Translations under genes and position numbers: made by a program
The notes under the pieces: model-generated
Seen by the model: the letters and a program-made list of their open reading frames with translations, nothing else
Databases searched by the model: none
Told to the model about the DNA's origin: nothing
From: an uncultured Phycisphaerae bacterium
Lineage (GTDB): Bacteria; Planctomycetota; Phycisphaerae; UBA1845; Fen-1342
DNA: 64,000 nt
Direction: 5' to 3'
NCBI GenBank assembly: GCA_937928595.1
Contig: CALGJV010000025.1
Location: forward strand, 1 to 64,000
Part shown: one piece after another, positions 22,810 through 25,295 of the stretch
Layout of the letters: every line of letters starts with the position of its first letter
How positions within the stretch are numbered: the stretch's first letter is position 1

Positions 22810-23040
22810 TCAAACGGTGGGCGGGCCGTCCCACTCGTCCAGCCGACGATAATGGACGCCGGAACCGCTCCCTAAACCTCCCAGAACGAAGCCCACCCCG
22901 ACCGCCACCAGCAGGCCCGCTAGCGTCCACGCGAGCAACTGCGGCCAGACGAACAGCATGACCCCCAGCAGAATCAGGAACACGCCCAGAAGTACTCCGG
23001 CGCTCCCGAAACCACCGCCACCCGACCAGAAGATCCGCAC
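22810..23040 (-). CDS. Small Gly-rich membrane protein
   Basis: A 76-residue protein with a GTG start and GGAG six bases upstream. A Gly-rich head precedes two tightly spaced hydrophobic spans (VLLGVFLILLGVMLFVW and LLAWTLAGLLVAVGVGFVL). A short polar tail ends at DEWDGPPTV. It resembles small DUF3096-type or glycine-zipper membrane proteins, but I cannot assign it. Confidence 0.6.
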   Translation of the reverse strand: MRIFWSGGGGFGSAGVLLGVFLILLGVMLFVWPQLLAWTLAGLLVAVGVGFVLGGLGSGSGVHYRRLDEWDGPPTV

Positions 23041-23265: not shown

Positions 23266-23853
23266 TCAGTTCGCTCGCTTCGCCTTCAGGCACCGCTCGA
23301 TCGTTGAAGCCAGCCGCTTGCTTGCGAGCTCCTCGCCGCTGGCCACGATCCGGCCCGTGTCCGCATCAACCAGCACGGCCCACGGGATCGCGTTCACGCC
23401 GTACTGCTTCGCGATGCCGGACGCGTCGCCGTAAACCTGCTCCCAGGGCATCTTCTGGTCGCGGATGAACTCCTGCACCTTGCCGGCGGGTACGCCCGGG
23501 CCATCGAGCGTCACGCCCAGCACGACCAGGCCGTCCGACCCGAAACGCTCGTGCGCCGCGACCACCGCCGGGATCTCCTGGCGGCACGGCCCGCACCACG
23601 TCGCCCAGAAGTCCAGCAGCACCAGCCGACCCGCGAAATCCTGCGGGAACCGGACCGTCCGACTCGACAACGTCTCGGCCGTGAACGTCGGGGCGACCAT
23701 GCCTGCGACGAGCGCCGCGCCGGCAACCGCGGGGGCGTCCGAACCGGACGCCAGGCGCGCAATCCCTCACTGTCCGCCGCGCATCTGCAACTGGATCAGC
23801 GCCAGGGCCCCGAGGGCCACGACCGCCGCCACCAGCCAGCCGCCGTTCTTCAT
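23266..23853 (-). CDS. Membrane-anchored TlpA-like thioredoxin with one in-frame TGA (candidate selenoprotein)
   Basis: ATG 23853 follows a strong GGAGG site and opens a short anchor (WLVAAVVALGALALIQLQ). The frame meets TGA at codon 29 (23767-23769) and then stays open for 167 more codons through a Ser/Ala/Pro-rich linker into a complete thioredoxin fold with FWATWCGPC near residue 87, LGVTLDGP and the cis-Pro segment NAIPWAVLVD. TlpA proteins reduce disulfides outside the cytoplasmic membrane and need such an anchor. If the TGA is a true stop, only ATG 23700 remains, giving 144 residues with no export signal. A hairpin at 23734-23752 fits bacterial SECIS geometry. Selenocysteine, mutation or sequence error all remain possible. 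Confidence 0.7.
23734..23752 (-). promoter_or_regulatory. SECIS-like hairpin after the in-frame TGA
   Basis: On the minus strand GGCGTCC and GGACGCC pair perfectly around loop GGTTC. The stem begins 15 bases after the TGA, and the loop, starting with G, begins at base 22. A CGCG/CGCG lower stem can extend it across a small internal loop. Published bacterial SECIS rules call for an apical loop 16-37 bases after UGA with G in its first two positions, which this meets. Hairpins are common at this GC content, so this is suggestive only. Confidence 0.45.
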
Positions 23854-23892
23854 CTCGCATTCCTCCGCCGGGCCGCCGCGGCCCGCGTACGG

Positions 23893-24023: not shown

Positions 24024-25295
24024 ATGACGACCGAACTGGCGTCGGTGACCGACTCCGCCCTGGAGCCGATCCGCGCGAAAGTGCTCGCGGGCGCGCGGCT
24101 GACGCTCGAAGACGGCCTGACGCTGTACCGCACGCGCGACCTGTTCACGCTGGGCGAGCTGGCCAACCACGTCCGCGAGCGCCTGCACGGCCGGCGGGCC
24201 TACTACAACATCAACCGCCACATCAACTACACGAACTACTGCGTGCTCCGCTGCAAGTTCTGCTCGTTCTACCGGCCCTACGAGGCGTCGCGCGCGGGCG
24301 CGGCGGCCGGCGCCGCCTCGGCCGCGGCGGGTCCGACCGGCACGACGTTACCGCTGCTGCATGGGGCGGCCCCCGCCGCGACCGCGAGCGGCGCGCCGGC
24401 GAAGGGCGACGCGTACGAGTACTCGGTGGACGAGGTGGTGGCGCTGGCGGCGGAGGCCGCCGCTCGCGGCGCGACCGAGGTCCACATCGTCGGCGGGCTG
24501 CATCCGCGGCTGCCGTTCTCGTACTACACCGACCTCTGCCGAGCGATCAAAACGCGCTGCCCGACGCTGCACATCAAGGCGTTCACCGCGATCGAGATCG
24601 TCCACTTCACGCGCATCGCCCGGCCGCGGCGGACGATCCACGAGGTGCTGACGGAGTTGCGGGACGCGGGGCTCGACAGCCTGCCCGGCGGCGGGGCGGA
24701 GATCTTCGACGACCGCGTGCACGACGAAGCGTTCAAGAACAAGGTGGGCGAGAAGCACTGGTTCGACGTGCACACGGCCGCGCACGAGCTCGGCATCCCA
24801 TCGAACGCGACGATGCTCTACGGCCATGTGGAGACGATCACGGAACGCTTGCAACACATGCTCAAGCTGCGGGCGCACCAGGACGTTTCGCTCCGCGAGC
24901 GCCGCGCGGCGTTCCAGTGCTTCGTGCCGCTCTCGTTCATCCCGGACGGCAGCGCCCTGGCGCACCTGCCCGGCCCGACGGGCCTGGACGACCTGCGGAC
25001 GCTGGCCGTCGCGCGGCTGATGCTGGACAACATTCCGCACCTCAAAGGGTTCTGGATCATGCAGTCGCCCAAGCTGTCGCAGGTCGCGCTGAACTGGGGC
25101 GTGGACGACTTCGACGGCACCGTCGTGTGGTACGACATCACCCGCCGCGAGGGGCAGGGCACCAACCGCCAGGAGCTGTCGGTGGACCAGATCCGCCGCC
25201 TGCTGCGGGAAGCCGGCTGCGAGCCGGTCGAGCGCGACACGCTCTACCGCCCGGTGTGCCGGACGACGCCGGCCGCGTCGGAGCTCCGGCAGTAG
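24024..25295 (+). CDS. mqnE: Aminodeoxyfutalosine synthase
   Basis: A 423-residue radical-SAM enzyme. The cluster motif is CVLRCKFC (C73, C77, C80). Family signatures include NINRHINYTNYC, EVHIVGGLHP, HIKAFTAIEI, GLDSLPGGGAEIF, SNATMLYGH and QCFVPLSF. It adds an S-adenosylmethionine-derived adenosyl radical to 1-[(1-carboxyvinyl)oxy]benzoate in the futalosine route to menaquinone. Between the cluster and GDAYEYSVDEVV there is an Ala/Gly-rich insert of about 40 residues (88-128) not usual in the family. The route implies mqnA, mqnC and mqnD elsewhere; a possible later step lies at 32804-34902. Confidence 0.92.
   Translation: MTTELASVTDSALEPIRAKVLAGARLTLEDGLTLYRTRDLFTLGELANHVRERLHGRRAYYNINRHINYTNYCVLRCKFCSFYRPYEASRAGAAAGAASAAAGPTGTTLPLLHGAAPAATASGAPAKGDAYEYSVDEVVALAAEAAARGATEVHIVGGLHPRLPFSYYTDLCRAIKTRCPTLHIKAFTAIEIVHFTRIARPRRTIHEVLTELRDAGLDSLPGGGAEIFDDRVHDEAFKNKVGEKHWFDVHTAAHELGIPSNATMLYGHVETITERLQHMLKLRAHQDVSLRERRAAFQCFVPLSFIPDGSALAHLPGPTGLDDLRTLAVARLMLDNIPHLKGFWIMQSPKLSQVALNWGVDDFDGTVVWYDITRREGQGTNRQELSVDQIRRLLREAGCEPVERDTLYRPVCRTTPAASELRQ

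Follow-up and report, generated by a model that had tools for sequence, protein, structure and literature searches.

A TlpA-type thioredoxin-fold gene of the Phycisphaerae with an in-frame UGA beside its membrane anchor: apparently an undescribed selenoprotein subfamily

In an uncultured bacterium of the Phycisphaerae, a gene for a TlpA-type thiol-disulfide oxidoreductase contains a single in-frame TGA between its membrane anchor and its enzyme domain. Comparison with related sequences makes it very probable that this is a genuine selenoprotein gene, in which the UGA at codon 29 is read as selenocysteine (Sec); this confidence concerns the decoding and leaves aside the step with the redox partners. 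The gene is located in the window, that is, the whole stretch of 64,000 nucleotides that was analysed, and its parts and the divergent neighbour are as follows.

23266-23853, minus strand: whole predicted selenoprotein gene from ATG to TGA stop, 195 residues, Sec at 29 (translation; nine orthologues aligned)
23861-23866, minus strand: Shine-Dalgarno-like GGAGGA, 7 bases 5' of the ATG (sequence)
23770-23853, minus strand: N-terminal anchor module, residues 1-28 (MKN, transmembrane helix at about 5-25, polar RGGQ; hydropathy, AlphaFold, and a module profile that matches nine genomes)
23767-23769, minus strand: in-frame TGA, codon 29, very probably read as selenocysteine (TGA in 7/9 and TGT for Cys in 2/9 orthologues; Sec/Cys column invariant)
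23734-23752, minus strand: bSECIS-like hairpin of 7-8 bp, loop GGUUC starting 21 nt past the UGA, apical 5 nt at 23741-23745 (position kept in seven UGA orthologues; five pairs with compensatory change; -14.0 kcal/mol)
23269-23706, minus strand: TlpA/ResA-type thioredoxin-fold domain with CGPC (Cys87, Cys90) and conserved Pro157 (Pfam, AlphaFold; ResA as best solved relatives)
24024-25295, plus strand: mqnE-like radical SAM gene of the menaquinone pathway (Radical_SAM and CofH_C; synteny by tblastn)

The minus-strand translation of 23266-23853 reads MKNGGWLVAAVVALGALALIQLQMRGGQ*GIARLASG...DFWATWCGPCRQE...KAKRAN*, with only one internal TGA. As the sequence-only reading had it, this one codon splits an anchor preceded by a ribosome site from a complete TlpA fold in the same frame, and the CGPC is intact. 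The mechanical ORF caller gives the gene as 23266-23700 with its start at Met52. A product begun there would have no export signal, in line with the earlier claim that the enzyme lacks one unless the UGA is read through, and no Shine-Dalgarno-like site was seen 5' of Met52 (judged by eye). The terminal stop of the gene is also TGA, so genome-wide reassignment of UGA could be ruled out.

Sixty relatives were searched, and the N-terminal module (42 residues) was run as a profile over 27 species of the same family (Planctomycetota, Phycisphaerae), in which G000 denotes the window's own genome. The profile found the protein with anchor and TlpA domain in nine of the 27 species. Seven of them carry TGA exactly at the site (G000, G016, G026, G013, G010, G021 and G001), in the context (R/Q/T)-U-G, while TGT (Cys) occupies it in the other two (G006, SRCGL; G002, GRNCAVV). 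The comparison of homologues at codon 29 that had been proposed thus yielded UGA seven times, Cys twice and no other residue. Only three columns of the N-terminal module are invariant, M1, K2 and Sec/Cys, where the first codon of G001, GTG or another start, is aligned as M. Such an exchange of UGA and Cys at an invariant site is the classic selenocysteine signature, and the conserved UGA with a Cys alternative that marks a bacterial selenoprotein is found here. The orthologues share 41-55% identity overall with the window protein, so that the UGA is not one recent mutation passed on by near-copies, and its occurrence in seven separate genomes speaks against a base error. In the closely related G016 and G026, the anchor codons differ by three synonymous changes and by none that alters an amino acid; small as these numbers are, they suggest that the protein sequence encoded 5' of the UGA is under constraint. 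The sequence-only reading had regarded non-Cys sense codons in close relatives as evidence against it; the nine anchor-module orthologues have Sec or Cys throughout, but more distant TlpA proteins of the family do not have the Sec site. Several of these have an N-terminal hydrophobic segment and no Sec/Cys site, and at least one of them, in G004, adjoins mqnE, indicating that the Sec site is inessential to the fold. The TlpA-domain tree is poorly resolved between a single origin of the module and several losses.

The 7-bp stem with a G-first loop 22 bases past the UGA, described earlier from the letters, is present in the window gene (8 bp when G25-C29 is counted; the first loop base is the 22nd after the UGA). 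The published rule for the bSECIS demands a spacing of 16-37 nt, a G in the first two loop bases, a stem of at least 4 bp and an MFE of -7.5 or lower (PMC13188914). The window hairpin complies with it, as do six of the seven UGA genes overall, the window gene included; the exception is G001, whose hairpin is short (4 bp and a closing pair) and failed both hairpin tests. The earlier statement that the bacterial SECIS rules are satisfied therefore stands, but it is a weak argument alone, because 216 of the 1149 TGAs in the window (19%) comply in this GC-rich DNA, and the generic rule was rejected as proof. A stricter rule (an NG[G/U] 5-nt loop at exactly +21 and a stem of at least 5 bp) leaves 2 of the 1149 TGAs, one of them presumably the codon-29 site. 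What raises the site above chance is its conservation, since seven species share the position of the TGA.

The loop NGU(C/U)C is found at exactly +21, ungapped, in all seven UGA genes, and the stem varies from 4 to 8 bp with a poorly conserved lower part. In these two features the element differs from the fdhF-type bSECIS of E. coli, with which it shares a short hairpin 3' of the UGA, the G and U of the apical loop and the published spacing (PMC13188914). Across eight sequences (the seven UGA genes and G006), five of eight pairs have both-sided changes that keep the pairing, and the covariation score was matched by 1 of 500 shuffles and was highest at zero slide. The window gene encodes ASGSDA where the relatives mostly have RPG(P/S)G, and the fact that its residues have drifted while the hairpin persists points to selection on the RNA. 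Wherever a UGA genome has Gly in the loop (six genomes), it is encoded by GGT, although this codon is rare: it makes up 6 of 148 Gly codons in a set of three genes of the window and 9 of 164 in the mqnE genes of the relatives. When the codons were recoded synonymously, the strict hairpin arose in 0-7% of the trials. The folding energy of such recodings in the hairpin region did not differ from that of the natural sequence, so at the RNA level the case is made by the identity of the loop, its position and the covariation. As for the Cys forms, the hairpin is absent from G002 (-1.6 kcal/mol) and has been kept in G006 (-13.4 kcal/mol), as if that gene had recently changed from Sec.

The machinery for Sec, for which a search had been suggested, is encoded in the window's genome: a tRNA-Sec with UCA anticodon (65.1 bits), SelA (510 bits), SelB (293 bits) and SelD (379 bits), all above their curated cut-offs. 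The SelD gene (L049, G000:C22:130752-131675) has an in-frame TGA itself, in SCAGUAGK, and a hairpin with a GGUGC loop starting about 32 nt past it. SelD of this genome is thus probably a selenoprotein, and UGA is probably read as Sec elsewhere in the genome too. Among the 27 genomes of the family, 23 have SelA and 19 have tRNA-Sec. Both are found in five of the seven UGA genomes and at least one in each of the seven; the searches gave no SelA in G021 and no tRNA-Sec in G026, both of them draft assemblies. Both Cys genomes, G006 and G002, possess tRNA-Sec, so a lost Sec system does not account for their Cys forms.

These data bear on other readings of the codon. If the UGA were an ordinary stop, the locus would be a pseudogene or a base error, or it would encode a small anchor peptide and, downstream, a soluble TlpA with a start of its own such as Met52; the choice of the ORF caller agrees with the last of these. 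That reading is nearly refuted, since the UGA is common to seven species, the frame is unbroken in two others that have Cys there, the Met52 product has neither a visible ribosome site nor an export signal, and the genome has the Sec machinery. Low-level readthrough of UGA is common, and a regulated form of it by another tRNA (e.g. a near-cognate one such as that for Trp), in place of Sec decoding, is a further reading. Against this stand the relatives, which substitute Cys and not Trp or Arg, the presence of a SECIS-like loop and a full Sec system, and the TGA stop of the gene, by which UGA is not reassigned; we consider such readthrough highly improbable. Of the checks proposed from the letters, each one that was run favours decoding of UGA-29 as selenocysteine, and this is the reading retained in what follows.

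With regard to the protein, hydropathy places the best transmembrane segment at residues 6-22, and the AlphaFold model has a helix at 5-25, a low-confidence linker at 28-43 and a confident thioredoxin fold from about residue 50, with pLDDT of about 95 or more across the TlpA domain. The domain matches AhpC-TSA (PF00578, 2e-19) and Redoxin (PF08534) of Pfam, both above cut-off, and the best solved structural relatives are ResA (4nmu and 1st9), with TlpA represented by 1jfu. C87, C90 and P157 are invariant in the alignment (Sec entered as C), and the thioredoxin fold, CxxC and conserved Pro of the TlpA/ResA type are all found. The score against NCBIfam ResA proper (NF002854) is 66.3 bits, below the cut-off of 170, which places the protein outside ResA proper. 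Its thioredoxin motif, WATWCGPC, is all-Cys, and the Sec is 58 residues N-terminal of it; over the nine orthologues the first Cys of the CxxC is 49-58 residues C-terminal of the Sec/Cys site. Oxidoreductases of the ResA, TlpA and DsbE type have the same thioredoxin fold, WCxPC, conserved cis-Pro position and membrane anchor, but known members are not described with Sec or Cys between anchor and domain. A lipoprotein reading of the Sec/Cys was rejected, because a lipobox has a small residue (Gly, Ala or Ser) at -1 of the Cys, and the preceding residue is Q, R, T or N in 9/9.

Many known bacterial thioredoxin-fold selenoproteins have their Sec in the thioredoxin motif. An inventory of 2026 comprises 119 prokaryotic selenoprotein families or subfamilies, counts proteins of the same domain with different Sec positions as distinct subfamilies, and has TlpA-type entries with Sec inside the thioredoxin motif, as UxxC or UGC; a membrane-proximal Sec together with an intact TlpA CxxC is a design that it does not describe (PMC13188914). 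As we read it, the UGC kind corresponds to NCBIfam NF041054 (WAxxUGC). The ResA-like WAxxUGC proteins of NF041054 and the UxxC TlpA/thiol-disulfide isomerase-like selenoproteins also combine a TlpA-type domain with Sec, but in these the Sec is within the motif, and the window protein scores 48.2 bits against the NF041054 cut-off of 300. One family member, G015, has a TlpA candidate of such known design, with TGA inside the motif (WATWUPPC; L025, G015:C5:243-689). A planctomycete genome study with a list of selenoproteins (PMC4807772) leaves TlpA unmentioned in its main text, and a search of mostly open-access literature for selenocysteine and TlpA turned up nothing on this form by title or abstract. 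The earlier remark that no family of this form had been described holds against the 2026 inventory; by the inventory's Sec-position rule a TlpA protein with Sec29 counts as a new subfamily, and the protein with anchor, Sec and TlpA domain is apparently a real, undescribed one. The eukaryotic selenoproteins K and S also have a single transmembrane anchor and a Sec outside any thioredoxin motif, in a flexible segment. This is an analogy only: they are unrelated, their Sec is near the C-terminus and on the cytosolic side, and they have no TlpA domain.

In seven of the nine genomes mqnE is the divergent neighbour of the TlpA gene (in the window by its own sequence, in six by tblastn), which supports orthology and hints at a link with menaquinone. 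By tblastn, mqnE was not found near the TlpA gene in G021, and the contig of G006, counted outside the seven, is too short to show this neighbour. Outside the family, nothing convincing for the module was found in 114 genomes of the order, 397 of the class and 392 of the phylum, overlapping samples of about 800 planctomycete genomes; the search of the order used a full-length profile and gave no match covering the anchor columns. Two weak matches in the phylum (L172 and L173) looked like chance, the latter being in an apparent MraY/FtsW/MurG region. A second convincing carrier of the anchor module was not found in the window's own genome, and a scan of genome contigs with a pattern common to all TlpA proteins gave ordinary relatives only. 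In G021, two TlpA-like genes stand in tandem (L180, G021:C175, 3940-5087), of which only one has the Sec module. Between the TlpA gene and xerD, the window has a 76-residue ORF with hydrophobic stretches at 22810-23040 on the minus strand (VRIFWSGGGGFGSAGVLLGVFLILLGVMLF...), possibly a small membrane protein.

Very probably, UGA-29 is decoded as selenocysteine by SelB and tRNA-Sec, which the hairpin starting 21 nt past the codon would guide. The product would be an inner-membrane protein whose N-terminal helix holds the ResA/TlpA thiol-disulfide domain in the periplasm, and Sec29 would then be at the outer surface of the membrane, between anchor and enzyme. There it may react with a substrate on the membrane side, which could be a peroxide, a disulfide or a donor linked to quinone. 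The oxidised Sec could then be resolved by the CxxC, either within one molecule or from a partner, in a peroxidase or reductase relay fed with electrons by a DsbD/CcdA-type protein. Two DsbD_TM-type proteins are encoded on the window's contig, beyond the end of the window (G000:C25:72922-73542 and 100864-101493). That the Sec is a second redox centre cooperating with the CxxC and a DsbD/CcdA-type reductant has, in our judgement, close to an even chance. We propose somewhat more tentatively that the membrane-proximal Sec forms a second redox centre of its own on the chain that also carries a complete TlpA CxxC, serving a selenium-dependent relay or peroxidase that its neighbourhood links to menaquinone synthesis. 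When selenium is short, termination at the UGA would leave the bare anchor peptide only, so the output may track the selenium supply. The main rival for the role of the Sec is a structural one, in which a diselenide or disulfide joins two anchors and gives a dimer of TlpA domains at the membrane surface. A single Sec or Cys just outside the transmembrane helix in 9/9, with no conserved Cys nearby, is in line with such a bond, and the linker past it, of low confidence in the model, is perhaps flexible. In the same chain, however, a CxxC thioredoxin fold is within reach, and selenocysteine is, to our knowledge, seldom retained where its bond is purely structural; a structural dimer thus seems unlikely.

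As regards a redox role, Sec has been retained on its own next to the membrane and outside the fold, with the enzyme's CxxC left as cysteine, and this suggests that the chemistry at the membrane surface is a distinct one. Standard annotation would start genes of this kind at Met52 or treat them as broken, and so miss both the anchor and the dependence on selenium. Since natural Sec and Cys versions exist in close relatives, the role of selenium in this protein is directly testable.
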